Part shown: piece after piece, positions 2,294-44,964 of the stretch
Numbering within the stretch: the first letter of the stretch is position 1
Layout of the letters: the number at the start of each line of letters is the position of its first letter
Source: Haloferula sp. BvORR071
GTDB lineage: Bacteria > Verrucomicrobiota > Verrucomicrobiia > Verrucomicrobiales > Akkermansiaceae
Direction: 5' to 3'
Assembly (NCBI RefSeq): GCF_000739615.1
Contig: NZ_BATP01000022.1
Location: 1-64,000, forward strand
Length of the DNA stretch: 64,000 nt
Translations under genes and position numbers: made by a program
The notes under the pieces: generated by a model
Database searches by the model: none
What the model was told of the DNA's origin: nothing
The model's input: the letters and a program-made list of their open reading frames with translations, nothing else

Positions 2294-4300
2294 ATGCAGG
2301 ATCAGGACAGTGACGGCCAGCTTCTCCAATCGTTCGCAACGACCCGCGACGAGGAGGCCTTCCGTCGGCTCACACAACGTCACCTCGGCCTCGTCTTCCA
2401 CACCGCCCTGCGCCGCACCGGCAATCGCGCGCTCTCCGAAGACATCAGCCAGAACGTCTTGCTCGCCCTCGCTCGCAAAGCCGGAGGCTTGGCCAAGGAA
2501 CCCGAGCGCCTCCCCGGCTGGCTGCACCGCGCCACCCTCTACGAAGCCTCCAAAGCCATGCGTGCGGAATCCTCCTACCAGCGTCGCAAGCAGCAGAGCC
2601 AGGAAGAGGCCACCGCTGCCACTGCCGCCAGCGAGATCGATCCAACATGGCACGAGGTCCTGCCGCACCTCGATCTAGCCCTCGACAAGCTCCCCGAGTC
2701 CGACCGCCGCGTCCTCCTCCTCCACTACTTCGAAGACCACCCCTTCGCGCAAATCGCGGAGCATCTCGGCAAGAACTCCGCCGCGGTGCGGAAGCAATCG
2801 CAGCGCGCCCTCGAAAAGCTCTCCCGCATCCTGCGCACCAAGGGCATCGCCCTCTCCGTCACCGCACTTGGCGCCGGCCTCGCCACCCAGACCGCGAAGG
2901 CGGTTCCGGAAGCCCTCATTCACTCGGCCAGCAGCTTTGCCCTCGCCGGCTCCAGCAGCCCTCTTGCTTTCTCCATCAGCGCCATGATCGCCTCGAAACC
3001 CAAAGTGGTCATCCCTCTTGCCTTGTTGCTCCTCGTCACGCCACTGGTCCTCCAACAGCTGGCCATTGCCAAGGAGCGGGACCGGATCCAATCGCTGCAC
3101 GACTCGCTGGCAAGCTCCGCCAAAGCAGACACTATCACCGCCCGTCGCGCCCCCGCGAACGCATCGAACCACACCACCTCAAACAGCATCGACATCATGG
3201 TGCTGGCGAAGGAGAAGGCCGATGCCTCGCGGGCCGGCGGCGAAACCCGGCGCCGTTTCGAGGCAAAGCTCGCGGGCCTGGACACCGACACGCTGGCCGA
3301 CTTGATCCGCAAGGCAGGTGCCGCACCGCTGGGCTTTGACAAGAAAATCGATTTGCTCCGTTCCCTGGTCGACACAATTTCCAAGACCGACCCCGAGCGT
3401 GGCCTTACCGCGGCAGTCGAGGGCTTTCCGGAAGGTGCTTCGGTGGGAAGCTTTATCTCCGGCGCAGGTGTGGACACCACCCTGTCCGCATGGGTGGAAA
3501 AGGATCCCAAGGCCGCCATGGCCTGGTTCCGCAAAAACAAGGATCTGCCTAAACTCAATGTGAGTTCCCCGCCGACAGGCGACGGGGAATCCCCGCTCAC
3601 CCAGAGCAAGGGCCTGGAAAGCAATCTCATCTACGGCTTGATCAAATCTTCAAGGCCCGACGCGGCATCCTACCTGACAGGACTTCCCGAAACCGAGCGA
3701 TTGGAACTCCTCAGCCTGACCATGAATGCGGTGTGGGACGCTGAAATGAGAGGTGATCTTCGGCACGATTGGTTGCCTCCCTTCCTGCAGATCATGCGTG
3801 AGACCGTTCCTCCATCCAAACAGGAGGAGATGGTCGCCAAGCTTGCCAGGGGCGCCGATTCCAGGAACCTGCGGCAGGTGCTGGCGGGTGCCGGTGCGAC
3901 ACAGGAGGAAACCGCGGCTCTCGCCCGCGCAGTCGCCCAACAGCATTTCGATGCGGCACACATGAATCGCTGGCAATATGGCGAGGACCTCACCCCCCTC
4001 GATCCCGACCTCCTCGAATGCGTGGAGGGACTCTTACCCGGACGCGGGCAGGAAATCCTGCGCGAAGCCGAAGCGGCCACAGAACAAGCCGCCCTTCAAA
4101 AGGCCACGAGGATTCTGGCCCAAGTGCGTGCGGGCTCCCTCCTGTCGGACAATCTGACCTTCTCAGCACTCACCAGGAACGATCTATCCAAGCATATCCC
4201 CGAGGCTCTCGAACTCACGAGCCGGATCAAGGATCCCGGGCTCCGGCAAAGGGCGGTCGATTTCCTCAACTCCAAAGCCAACACCCCTTCGGCTCCGTGA
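2294..4300 (+). CDS. ECF-type sigma factor fused via a membrane helix to an extracytoplasmic domain
   Basis: The first 180 residues or so form an ECF sigma factor: region 2 around residues 10-80 (DEEAFRRLTQRHLG, SEDISQNVLLALARK) and region 4 around 129-179 (LPESDRRVLLLHYFEDHP, then the helix-turn-helix FAQIAEHLGKNSAAVRKQS). A small-residue linker leads to a membrane helix at about 237-257 (VVIPLALLLLVTPLVL), then a coiled stretch and some 400 residues of predicted helical repeats. One repeat reads WVEKDPKAAMAWF and recurs in the next gene. The product is 668 residues from ATG 2294; a TTG at 2246 is also open. The stop overlaps the GTG of the next gene. Sigma factors with large extensions are known in Planctomycetes and Verrucomicrobia; their signals are mostly unknown. 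Confidence 0.85.
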   Translation: MQDQDSDGQLLQSFATTRDEEAFRRLTQRHLGLVFHTALRRTGNRALSEDISQNVLLALARKAGGLAKEPERLPGWLHRATLYEASKAMRAESSYQRRKQQSQEEATAATAASEIDPTWHEVLPHLDLALDKLPESDRRVLLLHYFEDHPFAQIAEHLGKNSAAVRKQSQRALEKLSRILRTKGIALSVTALGAGLATQTAKAVPEALIHSASSFALAGSSSPLAFSISAMIASKPKVVIPLALLLLVTPLVLQQLAIAKERDRIQSLHDSLASSAKADTITARRAPANASNHTTSNSIDIMVLAKEKADASRAGGETRRRFEAKLAGLDTDTLADLIRKAGAAPLGFDKKIDLLRSLVDTISKTDPERGLTAAVEGFPEGASVGSFISGAGVDTTLSAWVEKDPKAAMAWFRKNKDLPKLNVSSPPTGDGESPLTQSKGLESNLIYGLIKSSRPDAASYLTGLPETERLELLSLTMNAVWDAEMRGDLRHDWLPPFLQIMRETVPPSKQEEMVAKLARGADSRNLRQVLAGAGATQEETAALARAVAQQHFDAAHMNRWQYGEDLTPLDPDLLECVEGLLPGRGQEILREAEAATEQAALQKATRILAQVRAGSLLSDNLTFSALTRNDLSKHIPEALELTSRIKDPGLRQRAVDFLNSKANTPSAP

Positions 4301-5559
4301 GAAGCAAGCAGCTCATCCTTCCGCTTGCGGCCATCGCCCTGGTCACCGGCATCGCCATCTATCAGCAGCGGACACTCACCGGGCTGAAAGAGCAAACCCG
4401 CTCCTTGGAAAAGTCGCTCGCCAACCCGCCGGCGGCGGCCGCCCCCACGACAGGAACCTCGGCGCTCCTGAGTCCCGAGCAAAGCGAGAGCTTGTTTCCA
4501 GAAGCTGAAGCCGCCTTCTTCGCCATCCTTCGCTCCGAGGGTGTTAGCCCCGAGCAGCGGGAGCGGCTTTCCATGGCCCTTCTCCCGATGGACGTCCCCA
4601 CTCTGATCCGCTTGATGGCAGCACTGAAGGCGCACCCCGAGCTTCCACCGGAGCAGCAGCAAGACTTCGAGCTCCACTTCGCCTACGCGATTGCAGAGGA
4701 GCAGCCTGAAAAGGCCTTCGCGATCCTCGCTGACCTGCCTGGGGTGGAGGGATCGAAGCTATACTATTCCCTCCGGCAATGGTCGGCCATCGATCCAGCG
4801 GCAGCCGCCGCATGGTTCGAGCAGCAACTGCGAGCAGGCAACCCGGCCACCAATGATCCGGATCTCCGGCGACAGGCACTTGAAGCCCTGTTCCGGGCCG
4901 ACCCCGATCGAGGACTCCACCTCGCGCTCAACCTGCTGCCCGAAGTTCCAGATGCGATGGAGATCAACAAGCTGGCCGCCGAGACCCTTGAATCCCTGGC
5001 CGATGAACGCGAGCACGCCAGCTACCTCGCCGCGCTGCGCCGGGTCGCGGAAAAGTCTCCCGGCAATCTGGTGCTGGAGCAGATCCGCGCGGCCTACCTC
5101 AATGAGCTGCCCAGACGGCTCAAGCTCTGGACCTTCGATGAGGTCACCCCCCTGTTAGACGATGAATTGACCGCCGAAGAAAAGCTCGTGACCGCGCGCA
5201 ACCTCTCGACCTTCTCGGACCTCGATTCTCCGGAACGATGGGCCGGCTGGTTTGCCAAGATCGGCGGCGAGATGGACAAGCAACATCCGCTCCGCAAATA
5301 CCTCCGTTCTTGGTCGATCGCGGACTACCACGCCGTCGGTCAATGGCTTGACCAGTATCCGGACGGCCCGGTCCACAACGAACTCGTCCTCGAGCACGCC
5401 GACCGCATCCGCGATCCACTCTCCCCGAGGAGGCCGCCCGCCGTGCCTTGGCCCTGCCTGCCAGCCCCCAGCGGGAGGAAGTCCTCAAAGCCATCCATAG
5501 CTCATGGCAGGCGAAGGACCCCGAAGCCGCCGCGCGCTTCGCCCGGGAAAACGGCTTAG
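4297..5559 (+). CDS. Membrane-anchored helical-repeat protein, partner of the sigma fusion; apparent C-terminal frameshift
   Basis: Translation should start at the GTG at 4297, which overlaps the stop of the sigma-fusion gene as GTGA, so the two are translationally coupled. The protein begins with a membrane anchor (LILPLAAIALVTGIAIY), then a coiled segment and an alanine-rich helical domain with a WSAIDPAAAAAWFEQQ repeat like that of its neighbour. Reading stays sensible to about 5422, then becomes proline/arginine-rich. Adding one C to the run at 5423-5426 restores a frame that ends at 5567 and supplies another repeat, SWQAKDPEAAARFAREN. The true C-terminus is therefore probably at 5567. 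No known enzyme motif is seen. It may sense or transmit a signal with the sigma fusion. Confidence 0.75.
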   Translation: MRSKQLILPLAAIALVTGIAIYQQRTLTGLKEQTRSLEKSLANPPAAAAPTTGTSALLSPEQSESLFPEAEAAFFAILRSEGVSPEQRERLSMALLPMDVPTLIRLMAALKAHPELPPEQQQDFELHFAYAIAEEQPEKAFAILADLPGVEGSKLYYSLRQWSAIDPAAAAAWFEQQLRAGNPATNDPDLRRQALEALFRADPDRGLHLALNLLPEVPDAMEINKLAAETLESLADEREHASYLAALRRVAEKSPGNLVLEQIRAAYLNELPRRLKLWTFDEVTPLLDDELTAEEKLVTARNLSTFSDLDSPERWAGWFAKIGGEMDKQHPLRKYLRSWSIADYHAVGQWLDQYPDGPVHNELVLEHADRIRDPLSPRRPPAVPWPCLPAPSGRKSSKPSIAHGRRRTPKPPRASPGKTA

Positions 5560-5709
5560 AGCCCTAAGACGGTTTTTCCCCGCATTTTTCTGCTTTTACA
5601 GGCGTGAATCCATGAAGCCCCTTCATGGCATGCGCAAATACCCTGACATACCCGCTGCTTGCGCTTGCCGCCCGCGGCACCCATGATTGGCCTTGCCGCA
5701 AGCAAACCC

Positions 5710-7123
5710 ATGGCCGACGCCCCGCCGGAGCAAACGATCCTTATCGTCGATCAAGACCACGACTTCCTGGAGTGGGCGACGAAACATTTGACGGCGAATG
5801 GTCTCCGGATCCTTCGCTGCGATAATGCCGATAACGCCGTCAAGGTGGTCGAGAAGACCGCCGTCGACGTGGTGGTCGCTGACATCCAGCTCCAGCCCTT
5901 TGATGGCTTGGAGCTGCTCTCCCGCATCCGTCAGACTTCGCCCGGCACTCTGGTGATCCTGACCGCAGGTTTCCCCAGTACCGGCCAAGTGATCGAGGCC
6001 ACCCAACGCGGGGCCCACGACGTGCTGGGCAAGGAGGCCCTGCCCTTCGAGCTGCGCCCGGTGGTGGAAAGCGCGCTCCAGACCGCGGACGACCGCAAGA
6101 CCGCCCACCAGCCGGCGGCCGAAATGCCCACGCTGGATGGCCGAGTGAAGATCATCGGCATTTCGCGCGCCTTGCAGGATGTTTTCAAGATCGTCGGTCG
6201 TGTCGCGCGTTCGGACGCACCTGTTCTCGTCACCGGCGAGAGCGGCACCGGCAAGGAACTCGTCGCCAAGGCAATCCACGAGTATTCGCCACGCCGCCAA
6301 CAGGAACTGATCGCCATCAACTGCGGCGCAATCCCGGAGAATCTTCTGGAAAGCGAACTCTTCGGCCACGAGAAGGGCTCCTTCACCGGGGCTATCGCTC
6401 GCCGCGCCGGCCGCTTCGAGCAGGCAGATGGCGGCACGCTCTTCCTCGATGAGATCGGTGACATGCCCCTCTCCGTGCAGGTCAAGCTGCTGCGCGTGCT
6501 GCAGGATGGCACCTTCTCCCGCGTCGGCTCAAATGAGACCCTCAGCGGGGACGTGCGGATCGTCACCGCCACCAACAAGGTCCTTTCCAACGAAGTCGCC
6601 GCCGGCCGCTTCCGCGAGGACCTCTACTACCGCTTGAATGTGGTGGAGATCCGTCTGCCCCCTGCGCGAGCGCGCGGAGGACATCCCGCTGCTCGCGGAG
6701 TTTTTCCTGCAGCGCATCACCCGCAAGAACGGCATGGCCCGCATCCGCCTCTCTGCAGAGGCCATCGCCGCCCTGCAAGTGCACCGCTGGCCGGGCAATG
6801 TCCGCGAGCTGGAAAATACCATCGCCCGCGCCTGCGCGTTGGCCTCCTCCACCGTACTGCTGCCCAGCGATATACCGCTGGCCGCCGCCCCGGGCTCGGA
6901 GAAAGGTGCCCTCCGCCAATCGCTTTCGCGGATTCTAGATTCCGTGCCCGCCGGTGAGAATGCCATCCTTTGGCTCACCCGCGAGCTGGCAAATTCCGCC
7001 CTCGAACGCCACGACGGCGACGTTAAGGAAGCCGCCTCCGAGCTCGGCGTCGGCCCCGCCGAGCTGAAGCGCATCCTCGCCTCCGGCAGCTCGCCGTCCT
7101 TGGCTTCTGCAGGAGAGCTCTGA
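5710..7123 (+). CDS. NtrC-type sigma-54-dependent response regulator (frameshifted at 6658-6662)
   Basis: The N-terminal receiver domain has [10 protein letters not shown] and the likely phosphorylated Asp58 in [13 protein letters not shown]. The AAA+ sigma-54 interaction domain follows with Walker A GESGTGKE, the loop GSFTGA (a common variant of GAFTGA), and Walker [11 protein letters not shown]-terminal Fis-like helix-turn-helix is recognisable but degenerate ([20 protein letters not shown]). The open frame breaks after VVEIRLPP: continuing in frame gives ARARGGHP, whereas one extra C in the five-C run 6658-6662 gives the canonical [18 protein letters not shown] and continues to the stop at 7123. 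The first frame alone runs to 6957. Either a real mutation or a homopolymer error explains this. No histidine kinase is adjacent. Confidence 0.85.
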
Positions 7124-15802: not shown

Positions 15803-16663
15803 ATGAAGAAATTGAAGTTCATTCACCAGAGCTCCGGAATGCATTGGGTGGGCGATGGTTTCCCCGTCCGCTCGGTCTTCTCCTACGACAATCTCGGCCG
15901 CGAGCTCGATCCCTTCCTTTTGCTCGACTATGCCGCGCCGCATGAATTCGCGCCGACCACCCGGCGTCGCGGCGTGGGAGCGCACCCGCACCGCGGCTTC
16001 GAGACCGTCACCTTCAGCTTCCAGGGTGAGGTCGAGCACCGCGACTCCAGTGGCGGCGGTGGCAAGATTGGCCCCGGTGACGTGCAGTGGATGACCGCCG
16101 CCAGCGGCCTGCTTCATGAGGAGTTCCACTCCGAGGACTTCGCCCGCCGCGGTGGCGTCTTCGAGATGGCCCAGCTCTGGGTGAATCTCCCGGCCCGCGA
16201 CAAGAGCGCGGCCCCGCGCTACCAGACCCTGCTCAAGCAGGACATCCCGGTGGTCGATCTGCCCGATGGTGCAGGCACCCTGCGCGTGGTCGCCGGTGAG
16301 TTCGGTGGCCACAAGGGTCCGGCACAGACCTTCACGCCCATCAACGCCTGGGACCTGCAACTCAAGGTCGGCAAGTTCGCGCAGCTGCTGGTGCCTGAGG
16401 GACACACCACCGCGCTGCTGGTGTTGCGCGGCTCGCTGCTGATCGACGGTGACACTGCTGCCAAGGAAGGTGCGCTGGCGGTCTTCGAACGCGAGGGCAA
16501 GGACCTTGTCTTCCAAGCTACGGAAGACTCCCACGTCCTGCTCTTGGGCGGCCAGCCCCTGAACGAACCGATCGTCGGCCAAGGCCCCTTCGTAATGAAC
16601 AGCCAGCAGGAGATCCTTGAGGCCTTCCACGATTTCCAGAAAGGAAAGATGGGAGCGCTTTGA
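15803..16663 (+). CDS. Pirin family protein
   Basis: The 286-residue bicupin has the pirin metal-site block HPHRGFETVTF near residue 58 and a downstream DVQWMTAASGLLHEEF block, both diagnostic. Pirins bind Fe(II) or similar metals; some have quercetin 2,3-dioxygenase activity and others act as redox-responsive cofactors, so the precise role stays open. The ATG at 15803 gives MKKLKFIHQSSG, the usual family start, although the frame is open upstream. It follows the LysR-controlled hydrolase in the same orientation. Confidence 0.92.
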   Translation: MKKLKFIHQSSGMHWVGDGFPVRSVFSYDNLGRELDPFLLLDYAAPHEFAPTTRRRGVGAHPHRGFETVTFSFQGEVEHRDSSGGGGKIGPGDVQWMTAASGLLHEEFHSEDFARRGGVFEMAQLWVNLPARDKSAAPRYQTLLKQDIPVVDLPDGAGTLRVVAGEFGGHKGPAQTFTPINAWDLQLKVGKFAQLLVPEGHTTALLVLRGSLLIDGDTAAKEGALAVFEREGKDLVFQATEDSHVLLLGGQPLNEPIVGQGPFVMNSQQEILEAFHDFQKGKMGAL

Positions 16664-16797
16664 GTGACCGAGAAGGATACTGGCGGTGTTGCCTGCGGGG
16701 GCAACGCCGCTTCCTTGTACTGCGACCGTGGATTTTTCCCGGGATTTTCCGTAACGTTCCTGCCGGACCGCGAAATCCCTACGGGAACCCACCAGCC

Positions 16798-17331
16798 ATG
16801 CCCGAGATCAACGAATTCGCCGCTGTGGTGCGCGAGCACCATGCGAGCCTGCGCTACTTCATCCGCTCGCTCGGAGTGCAGCAGGCGTGGGTCGATGACA
16901 TTGCCCAAGAGGCCTTCCTGCTCGCCTACCGGAAGTGGGACGAACTCGACGAGACCGGCAACGCCGGTCTCTGGCTCTGTGCGATCGCGCGCAATCTCGT
17001 GATGAATGAACTCAGCAAGAACAGCCGCCGCCAGCGCCTGCTCGATGAGAACATGACGACTCTCCTACTCGCTGCAGAAAGTGGCGAGGACACTCCACCC
17101 GGCGGCGCCGCGGATCGCGGGATCCACCACCAAGCTCTACGCGATTGTCTCGCCAAGCTACCCGAGCGCTCCCGCCAAGTAGTGCATGCGCGCTACTTCC
17201 AGGATCAGAATTCCAGCGAGATCGGCAGCGAACTGAAACTCAGCACCACTGCGGTCCGGCAAATCCTCTTCCGCTCCCGCAATCTGCTGGCGGAATGCTT
17301 GCAGCGCAAAGCCATCCACGAAGCCCCCTGA
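16798..17331 (+). CDS. ECF RNA polymerase sigma factor
   Basis: The 177-residue product is a minimal ECF sigma factor. Region 2 includes LGVQQAWVDDIAQEAFLLAY near residue 25 and the region 2.3-2.4 sequence NAGLWLCAIARNLVMNELSK. Region 4 includes LPERSRQVVHARYFQDQNSS followed by the helix-turn-helix EIGSELKLSTTAVRQIL. It ends in TGATG, where its stop overlaps the start of the FecR gene, so both are made together. This is the usual arrangement of a sigma factor with its FecR-type membrane regulator. No TonB-dependent receptor is adjacent, unlike the classical iron-citrate system. Confidence 0.92.
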   Translation: MPEINEFAAVVREHHASLRYFIRSLGVQQAWVDDIAQEAFLLAYRKWDELDETGNAGLWLCAIARNLVMNELSKNSRRQRLLDENMTTLLLAAESGEDTPPGGAADRGIHHQALRDCLAKLPERSRQVVHARYFQDQNSSEIGSELKLSTTAVRQILFRSRNLLAECLQRKAIHEAP

Positions 17332-43379: not shown

Positions 43380-44540
43380 TCATTGCCCTCCCGCCAGCCC
43401 TCGCATTGCGGGATCCTTGACCCGCTCCAGCAAGGCAGCCGCTTCATCCGGCTTGCCATGCTTCAGGTACACCTGGGCGGTGCCAGCAAGGATGGCATCC
43501 GTGGCGTGATCATTCGGATTCGCATCTGCCCAGGCGATTGCCGACTGCGGGTCGAGATTGGCCACCCACGCGGTGAAGGCGAGCGGTTCCTCCGGCCGCG
43601 GATACTTCTCCATGACCTTGCTCACATATTCCCAAGGCGAGCCGCCGTTGCGCGCGATCATCGAGGCCGCGAAGTTCTGCTCGGCAGGCCGGGCGGACCA
43701 TTCCTGGTCGAGACGGGCGAAGGCGAACTTCTCCACCGAGCCCGGGTCCGAACGGCTCAGGGCTTCCATCAGCACCCGCGCGGATTCCTTGTTGAATGCC
43801 GGGGAGTCCGCCGGGAGCTTGTCGAACCACGCCTGCGCCCCTTCGTTGCCCATCGTGTAGATGATCGACCCGGAGATATGCACCGCCGCCTCGGTCTGCT
43901 GCCCGTTCGGCAACCCGGATGCGAAGGCGACGGCGGCCGCGGGATCTGACTCCGCCAAACCGTGACCCAAGCCACTCAGCGCCGCCGCCCTCAAGGGCGA
44001 ATCACCGAGCTCCTCAAAGGCGGCCCTCGCCCCCGCCGGATCCTTGAATGCCCAGGATTTCAGCAGGGAATTAACGCCCTCTTTCCCGGCCTCCTCCGGA
44101 TGCTCCTGCACGTAAGCCCAAGCCCCCTTGGGATCAACCCGCCCCCAGGTCTGCCAAAACATCATCGTCTCGATCCCGAACAAGTGGCCGACCGCCTTCT
44201 CATCCCGCAGCATCGCGGCGACTGCGGGAGCGTCCGCCGGCTCCATCCCTGCCAACAGCGCCATCCAGCGTTCCAGCCGCTCGCTCTCCAGAGAGTGACC
44301 CAGCGACCCCTTCATCGCGGAAGCAAATCCACCCGCGGACCGGTTGGGGGAATTCCCACGCGCGGAGCCTCCGGACTTGCCTCCAGCCGCACGGTGATCG
44401 GCGGAAGCACCAGCAGCGGGTCGATCGGCCATCCCGGCGGCGCCGTCCGCCTGCTGGCCCGAGCTGGAGTCCAAACGTCCCAAAAAGAAGCCGCCGATAC
44501 CGGCCAAAACACAAGGAACCACGATGGGCAGCACTCTCAT
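43380..44540 (-). CDS. Membrane-anchored helical-repeat protein of the DPxxA family
   Basis: From ATG 44540 the product has 386 residues (an ATG at 44573 adds 11). An N-terminal anchor (LPIVVPCVLAGIGGFFLGRL) is followed by a glycine/serine-rich linker and a helical-repeat domain with at least four units: TWGRVDPKGAWAYVQEHP, SWAFKDPAGARAAFEEL, LAESDPAAAVAFASGLP and ANLDPQSAIAWADANP. The same unit is found in the extracytoplasmic domain of the sigma fusion at 2294 and its coupled partner at 4297. No enzyme motif is seen. It sits alone beside a toxin-antitoxin pair, so its partner, if any, is elsewhere. Confidence 0.7.
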   Translation of the reverse strand: MRVLPIVVPCVLAGIGGFFLGRLDSSSGQQADGAAGMADRPAAGASADHRAAGGKSGGSARGNSPNRSAGGFASAMKGSLGHSLESERLERWMALLAGMEPADAPAVAAMLRDEKAVGHLFGIETMMFWQTWGRVDPKGAWAYVQEHPEEAGKEGVNSLLKSWAFKDPAGARAAFEELGDSPLRAAALSGLGHGLAESDPAAAVAFASGLPNGQQTEAAVHISGSIIYTMGNEGAQAWFDKLPADSPAFNKESARVLMEALSRSDPGSVEKFAFARLDQEWSARPAEQNFAASMIARNGGSPWEYVSKVMEKYPRPEEPLAFTAWVANLDPQSAIAWADANPNDHATDAILAGTAQVYLKHGKPDEAAALLERVKDPAMRGLAGGQ

Positions 44541-44655
44541 ATCCGCAGGATCAGGCGGGCTTTCTGGACCCATCAAGAAGTTATGCCTTCTGCTCGGAAA
44601 ATTCACACAAGACACCTGATCGGGCGGTAGTCGACCCCTCCTTTCCCGGTCAGAA

Positions 44656-44964
44656 TCATCCCGGGCCTTCCTCACGTTCCCGTGCCCGGATCGCCGCCGG
44701 ATCCTTCCGGGAATCCAGGATCGCAACGACAAACGCTTTTCCGCTGTCCATCCGATAGTAGATCCAATACGGAAATCGTTTGCTGGTGAAGCGATGAAGG
44801 TCCCCGCGACACCGGTGGATCCCTGCGAACAGGCGAATCGAACTGATATCCGCGGAGATCGAATCCAGGAAATAGTCTCCAACCCCGGCTTCTTGCCGCT
44901 CGTAGAATCGAAAGCCGTCCCGAAGGTCGCGCCTCGCGGAAGGGAGAACGACAATCGCAATCAC
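44656..44964 (-). CDS. RelE/ParE-type toxin
   Basis: The 102-residue product has the ParE/RelE fold pattern: VVLPSARRDLRDGFRFYERQ at the start, then RFTSKRFPYWIYYRMDSGKA and VAILDSRKDP at the end. Toxins of this type inhibit gyrase (ParE) or cleave mRNA on the ribosome (RelE); which applies cannot be decided here. It starts at a GTG inside the antitoxin stop (GTGA), so both are made in tandem with antitoxin first. The arrangement is standard for type II systems. Confidence 0.85.
   Translation of the reverse strand: MIAIVVLPSARRDLRDGFRFYERQEAGVGDYFLDSISADISSIRLFAGIHRCRGDLHRFTSKRFPYWIYYRMDSGKAFVVAILDSRKDPAAIRAREREEGPG

Follow-up and report, generated by a model that had tools for sequence, protein, structure and literature searches.

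A putative membrane-tethered ECF sigma factor and its coupled same-repeat partner in Verrucomicrobiota

How is a sigma factor controlled when it seems to carry its own membrane anchor and sensor domain? Most bacterial sigma switches consist of a sigma factor plus a separate anti-sigma factor. In the window analysed here, the first 64,000 nucleotides of contig NZ_BATP01000022.1 from Haloferula sp. BvORR071 (phylum Verrucomicrobiota), a gene for an extracytoplasmic function (ECF) sigma factor runs on in one open reading frame (ORF) through a membrane helix into a helical-repeat domain, and overlaps the gene of a second membrane protein with the same repeats. The domain order, the common repeat family, the recurrent coupling of the two genes, the joint history of the two genes and a conserved promoter-like motif ahead of many sigma genes of the family were all computed. 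On balance, and with modest confidence, we favour the reading that the locus encodes a sigma receptor that is tethered to the membrane and regulates itself, together with a co-receptor. The parts of the two genes are as follows.

2294-4300, + strand: ECF sigma factor with membrane helix and helical-repeat domain, 668 amino acids (ORF translation, Pfam, model)
2372-2569, + strand: sigma region 2, residues 27-92 (Pfam PF04542)
2669-2821, + strand: sigma region 4, residues 126-176 (Pfam PF08281)
2843-3001, + strand: Ala-rich, nearly uncharged linker, residues 184-236 (composition across 111 relatives)
3005-3061, + strand: sigma membrane helix, residues 238-256 (hydrophobicity scan, alignment, model)
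3191-4279, + strand: sigma helical-repeat (alpha-solenoid) domain, residues 300-662 (profile, structure model)
3491-3529, + strand: repeat motif WVEKDPKAAMAWF of the sigma extension, residues 400-412 (translation, motif count)
4297-4300, + strand: GTGA, sigma stop overlapping partner start (ORF coordinates)
4297-5559, + strand: partner protein, 420-amino-acid frame, with the expected C-terminus in another frame (to 5567)
4312-4362, + strand: partner N-terminal membrane helix, residues 6-22 (hydrophobicity scan, model)
4474-5412, + strand: partner alpha-solenoid domain, residues 60-372 (structure model)
4780-4818, + strand: repeat motif WSAIDPAAAAAWF of the partner, residues 162-174 (translation, motif count)
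5405-5567, + strand: frame break in the partner, with its C-terminal tail shifted to another frame (ORFs, match to a relative)

The sigma gene reads from ATG at 2294 to TGA at 4298-4300. A first-pass annotation, made from the letters alone, had described ECF sigma regions 2 and 4, and both were recovered by Pfam above cut-off, as Sigma70_r2 at residues 27-92 and two overlapping region-4 models at 126-176 (PF04542, 27.8 bits against a cut-off of 24; PF08281, 53 against 25.7; TIGR02937, 72.1 against 42.9). The same annotation had placed a membrane helix at residues 237-257 of a single frame fusing a membrane-spanning sigma factor to a helical-repeat domain; the strongest hydrophobic window was found at 238-256, and the scan and the structure model agree on the fusion. 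A chance ORF or a misread fusion was ruled out, since orthologues from other genomes hold the frame through sigma, helix and repeats. In the model (22-row alignment; mean predicted local distance difference test score, pLDDT, 82), the linker is followed by a long helix at 236-282, in which the membrane helix continues as a coil to residue 282, and then by helices at 301-662 that form a solenoid; the modelled extension is all helical except for two bridge residues. The linker is almost charge-free and alike in make-up across 111 relatives. Pro250 of the membrane helix does not vary among close relatives (14-row alignment). Its use as a sign of intramembrane cleavage was rejected as weak, because only 35 of 110 members of the wider family have it.

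The known domain families gave little. The approximately 400 residues after the sigma membrane helix matched no Pfam family above cut-off, with no Pfam match to TPR or WD40 in the extension, and neither a zinc-finger (ZAS) domain nor a FecR-type anti-sigma domain, the latter a feature of fusions of the IutY type discussed below, was found in the sigma protein by Pfam at E<=1. Among the locus products no anti-sigma domain was recognised by Pfam, though the unassigned product of a neighbouring ORF (1487-2230), which has no Pfam match, might still be an anti-sigma. The sigma protein scored below the cut-offs of NCBIfam TIGR02989, the Rhodopirellula/Verrucomicrobium ECF family (54.6 against 124.55), and TIGR02984, a Planctomycetaceae-specific ECF family (42.4 against 183.75). 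No fold match to either the sigma or the partner model reached E<=0.001; the 50 best listed for each were solenoids, designed proteins and ECF sigmas.

A second membrane-anchored protein, reached through the GTGA overlap, had been described downstream, and it does start with GTG at 4297 and carry a hydrophobic helix at residues 6-22. Its model (9-row alignment; mean pLDDT 78) consists of this helix and then a solenoid, and the predicted fold is solenoid-like but generic; the HEAT model PF13646 reached 14.9 bits against a cut-off of 27.7. The first-pass annotation had the pair end at 5567. The frame opened at 4297 itself ends at 5559, its final ~45 residues being unlike those of relatives, and it is the expected tail, in another frame with its stop at 5565-5567, that ends there; over 47 residues it matches the C-terminus of a relative at 43%. 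There is thus a frame break near 5405-5430, either real or a sequencing error. Sequencing error is a likely cause, as the response regulator gene that follows appears to shift frame too, near 6640 (ORFs 5659-6957 and, overlapping, 6638-7123).

For the survey of the family, 80 regions were taken, 76 around sigma matches and 4 around partner-family matches; most matches of genome G005, some of G011 and all of G013 were left out. The sigma rows (102 plus 28), after 15 with an extension below 250 residues, one late-starting row and three identical ones were dropped, gave 111 non-identical sigmas, a sample chosen for extensions of at least 250 residues. A repeat extension was present in 73 and another type of extension in 38. 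The WxxxDPxAA repeat, seen earlier in both proteins of the window (WVEKDPKAAMAWF in the sigma, WSAIDPAAAAAWF in the partner), occurs as 55 copies in the 73 repeat extensions (shuffled mean 0.06) and as 53 copies in 55 partners (shuffled mean 0.11), with none among the 38 other-type extensions. A profile seeded by the window partner alone and then iterated gathered 73 of 111 sigma extensions and 55 of 71 downstream proteins. The same profile had no match at E<=10 among 364 controls; drift falsely joining extension and partner was ruled out by these controls (0/182 reversed, 0/182 shuffled copies). It also matched 24 of 333 other ORFs, 13 of which start hydrophobic like the partner and at least four of which are cut or broken members of the sample (L039, L120, L143, L196). 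Judged by sequence, the repeat domains of extension and partner form one family, and both proteins follow the same order of helix, coil, low-complexity linker and repeats. A joint tree keeps the two kinds of domain largely apart, with 14 label changes where shuffled labels give a mean of 35, and the well-supported branches force only three changes; the branches are too long for the duplication to be dated.

The coupling of the two genes, described at first for this locus, recurs widely. A repeat partner lies directly downstream of 53 of the 73 repeat-extension sigmas and of 2 of the 38 others. The overlap is exactly four bases in 33 of the 53 pairs, and 52 of the 53 partners begin with a hydrophobic helix. 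Among the 20 unpaired repeat-extension sigmas are two that stop where the contig does and one whose partner is cut; in the clade of 12 that holds the window sigma, nine are paired by our rule, the tenth's partner is cut by a contig end and two stand at a contig end. Sigmas lacking the membrane part, which would have refuted the first interpretation, did not emerge as a rule: 108 of 111, in this sample chosen for long extensions, have a hydrophobic window within residues 210-280 by a simple scan with a lenient threshold. On the sigma tree the labels are clustered yet often switch, with 13 changes of extension type and 15 of partner. Pairwise distances among the 53 pairs correlate between extension and partner (r 0.86), extension and sigma (0.76) and sigma and partner (0.73), none of these three values being reached in 2000 permutations, and the extension-partner correlation given sigma is 0.70. 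The pair has thus largely been inherited as a unit, which falls short of demonstrating domain-specific co-adaptation.

The region upstream of the sigma gene holds a further common element, absent from the first-pass annotation, which ends 20 bases ahead of the ATG.

2240-2273, + strand: promoter-like site; A/T tract, -35-like TTGTCC at 2246-2251, 17 bases, -10-like GGTGT at 2269-2273

In the window clade this appears as TTGTCC, 17-18 bases and GGTGT, and many sigma genes of the family are preceded by an A/T tract with TGTCCG, about 17 bases and a clade-specific -10 element. TGTCC-N15..20-GGTGT was found in 14 of 111 upstream regions (shuffled mean 0.1) and [TC]TGTCC in 49 (11.3 in shuffles). 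Other clades keep the A/T tract and TGTC with different -10 words, e.g. GGATAT or GGACA. By score, 61 of 111 regions contain a -35-like site (letter-shuffle mean 5.1), a descriptive count because the scoring was set after the sites had been seen. The stronger point is the contrast between -10 region and spacer. Across the 61 sites, similarity of the -10 region follows sigma identity with r 0.37 (0 of 1000 permutations as high), against r 0.06 for the spacer (44/1000) and 0.10 for the A/T flank (5/1000). Because the -10 region tracks sigma similarity, this suggests that each sigma drives its own operon. The canonical ECF promoter (AAC...CGT) was rejected as the upstream element, being found ahead of 10 of 111 sigmas with no excess over shuffles. 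Very short leaders, or none, would follow from eight own-genome sites, where 2 to 20 bases separate the -10 from the chosen start codon. In one clade, at L044 3344-3371 and upstream of L113, L125, L131 and L141, the site nearly forms an inverted repeat (TTGTCCG...CGGACAA in L044), so that in this clade it could alternatively be the site of a dimeric regulator.

Further targets of the window sigma were sought in its own genome by exact, relaxed and -35-only searches, and a wider regulon was not supported. The exact searches matched at 17 and 10 places, compared with 5 and 1 for the backward control; among 20 of these 27 that were inspected, 17 lie inside other ORFs, two have no gene start nearby, and the window's own site (2246-2273) is the only one just ahead of a gene. 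The relaxed search gave 27 matches against 10, with none of four inspected contexts within 100 bases ahead of a same-strand gene. The -35-only search gave 21 against 11: two are sigma genes of this family, two more lie 44 and 53 bases ahead of a same-strand ORF (L246, L238), and a few lie at least 105 bases ahead of one.

In the favoured reading, the sigma part would face the cell interior and the repeat domain the exterior, and the tether would hold the sigma inactive or limited until the outer domain receives a signal. The partner, in the same membrane, would pair with the extension through the like-folded repeats and set the threshold. Release of the sigma is proposed because the fused protein IutY, which joins a sigma to a membrane control part, is activated through cleavage by Prc and RseP (available text of PMC8999054); by this analogy it would probably be proteolytic, most likely by regulated intramembrane proteolysis. 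The first target of the released sigma would be its own operon, which would make the feedback positive and the regulon narrow.

Several points weigh against this reading. The mechanism is inferred by computation. Of 71 judgeable repeat-extension sigmas, 17 have no repeat partner downstream, and the repeat family is found also without an adjoining sigma, so that the first expectation, that both genes always occur together, did not hold. Co-occurrence on strongly supported branches leaves six independent pairs (median p 0.25), too small a number for significance. The correlations drop to 0.20-0.29 once only the 1244 most distant pairs are considered, and extension and partner point to one and the same nearest neighbour in just 29 of 53 cases, which means that much of the pair signal comes from close relatives. 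The upstream element has no scored -35-like site in 50 of 111 regions, and the genome motif searches gave no convincing target past the sigma's own operon. An M50-type protease has three matches in the own genome and is present in all 14 control genomes too, and for that reason its presence says little. The window partner may be damaged in this assembly. As for topology, Lys plus Arg alone around the sigma helix number 1.32 before and 1.50 after it, which does not favour an N-in orientation, and the weakly hydrophobic, uncharged linker could enter the membrane and reverse the topology.

These last two points lead to another arrangement, in which the linker and the strong helix enter the membrane together as a hairpin and the repeat domain remains in the cytoplasm; the solenoid would then bind cytoplasmic proteins or fold back on the sigma, and the partner's domain would lie outside. 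The low charge of the linker across the 111 relatives agrees with it, as does a linker window that meets the lenient hydrophobicity threshold in a number of them. Topology was judged by a simple hydrophobicity scan with charge and Cys counts in place of a dedicated predictor. Net charge falls from +1.28 before the sigma helix to +0.10 after it (n=111) and from +1.68 to +0.64 across the partner helix (n=53); Cys makes up 0.74% of sigma parts, 0.34% of extensions and 0.37% of partners; and a lipobox-like start, by a loose pattern, is present in 9 of 53 partners, clearest in one clade (L040, L122, L147). The net charge, the low Cys and the lipoprotein-type partners only moderately favour a repeat domain outside the cell. 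The halves had been expected on opposite sides of the membrane, and these three lines agree with that while the Lys plus Arg count does not. Against the hairpin stand the charge bias and low Cys of the extension, as in the partner, the enrichment of Lys and Arg at 235-237 directly ahead of the strong helix, and the likeness of extension and partner in the order of their parts; we regard it as unlikely. The partner might instead be the inhibitor, a membrane anti-sigma in function, with the sigma extension as a mere docking surface outside the membrane. The gene order, sigma and then a coupled membrane protein, resembles the usual one, in which the anti-sigma gene follows the sigma gene. However, only about five residues precede the partner helix, so there is almost no cytoplasmic part to bind the sigma, and the 17 sigmas without a partner also speak against it; this possibility seems very unlikely. 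A sigma that is active while tethered, without proteolysis, would need the membrane part only for positioning, and its control would be mainly transcriptional, through autoregulation and other regulators. The promoter-like motif at many sigma genes of the family fits such a sigma, and some ECF sigmas of a planctomycete occur in Triton- or sodium dodecyl sulfate (SDS)-soluble fractions (available text of PMC8567305), whereas IutY, the sole experimentally characterised case according to the available part of the review PMC8999054, is activated by cleavage. We hold activity in the tethered state to be quite improbable.

Compared with known systems, the favoured tethered receptor is a variation on an existing theme. 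Membrane-fused ECF sigmas are already known: IutY, ECF48, ECF52 and ECF53 (PMC8999054), and some of ECF36. Like IutY of Pseudomonas putida (ECF243), the window sigma joins an N-terminal ECF sigma and a C-terminal membrane-bound control part in one chain. IutY, however, serves siderophore cell-surface signalling and its extension is the anti-sigma of that system, while the window sigma has no recognised anti-sigma domain, a helical solenoid as extension, and a coupled solenoid partner. The actinobacterial groups ECF48, ECF52 and ECF53 (e.g. SCO4117) likewise carry C-terminal extensions (up to 400 residues) that contain one or two membrane helices, and their activation is expected to occur by proteolysis (PMC8999054); they are described with a zinc-finger anti-sigma domain, and SCO4117 with a carbohydrate-binding domain, neither of which Pfam found in the window sigma. 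The planctomycete WD40 ECF sigmas are also lineage-expanded, with large repeat extensions and some detergent-soluble members, but their repeats are WD40 and not alpha-solenoid, and the available text of PMC8567305 does not mention a coupled repeat partner. ECF42 shares a helical-repeat extension, made of TPR; the window sigma has no Pfam TPR, and no membrane helix is mentioned for ECF42 in the available text of PMC8103513. Fused membrane sigmas are thus already known, and the Verrucomicrobiota form with a solenoid and a coupled partner is a new variant. No publication on this family was found in the literature searched, some planctomycete ECF work lying outside it, and the family may already bear a group number in the 2021 ECF classification.

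The family is expanded within genomes and patchy among them. The own genome (G000, 7.8 Mb) has 18 related sigmas at E<=1e-15, 16 of them with an extension of at least 250 residues: ten with repeat extension and partner, three with the extension only, one with a partner only and two with neither. The partner profile has 53 matches there, several per ORF in places, and many lie away from any sigma, which marks a large repeat family. Sigma matches were present in 18 of 38 close genomes, the own genome counted, and in a phylum-wide draw in 22 of 194 genomes and 16 of 106 genera (E<=1e-12, the best six candidates scored per genome). The 22 named loci come from metagenome-assembled genomes (MAGs) of Akkermansiaceae, Haloferula, Roseibacillus, Opitutaceae and other Verrucomicrobiota, plus strain IMCC26134. 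The L204 contig, filed as an Akkermansia muciniphila MAG, holds a sigma very near those of Opitutaceae and is possibly mis-binned.

Other arrangements were also seen. In L042 (4992-6140, - strand) and L148 (3628-4632, - strand), a sigma with a membrane helix has only ~140 more residues and is followed by an ORF of 720-741 amino acids, which is a different variant. In L039 (3576-5799), a sigma with a membrane helix is followed 52 bases on by a repeat ORF without one, a split or frame-broken fusion. L041 has several repeat-family membrane proteins near the sigma on the opposite strand, L186 has several in series behind the partner, and related sigma domains lie within open frames of ~2300 amino acids at G048:C120:11939-12547 and G153:C13:12287-12937. 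The window itself contains the following other features.

664-1449: undecaprenyl diphosphate synthase gene
1487-2230: 247-amino-acid membrane-type ORF without Pfam match
from 5659, + strand: response regulator with sigma-54 interaction domain
16660-17331, + strand: ordinary extension-free ECF sigma, with a 1-base overlap to a 464-amino-acid ORF downstream
43380-44960, - strand: further ORF hit by the repeat-family profile; TPR matches it weakly

If the proposed reading is true, sensor, anchor and transcription factor would be united in one chain across a whole family, with a partner that shares the sensor fold, in a phylum whose signalling is little studied. The clade-specific -10 elements would offer testable sigma-promoter pairs for the study of how sigma specificity diversifies, and such pairs may be useful for building insulated gene switches. 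More tentatively, and as a doubtful though possible extension, Verrucomicrobiota may have repeatedly duplicated a large class of membrane sigma receptors, each with an outer alpha-solenoid and a coupled co-receptor and acting mainly on its own operon through a private -10, which would give about ten or more insulated, self-reinforcing switches per cell.

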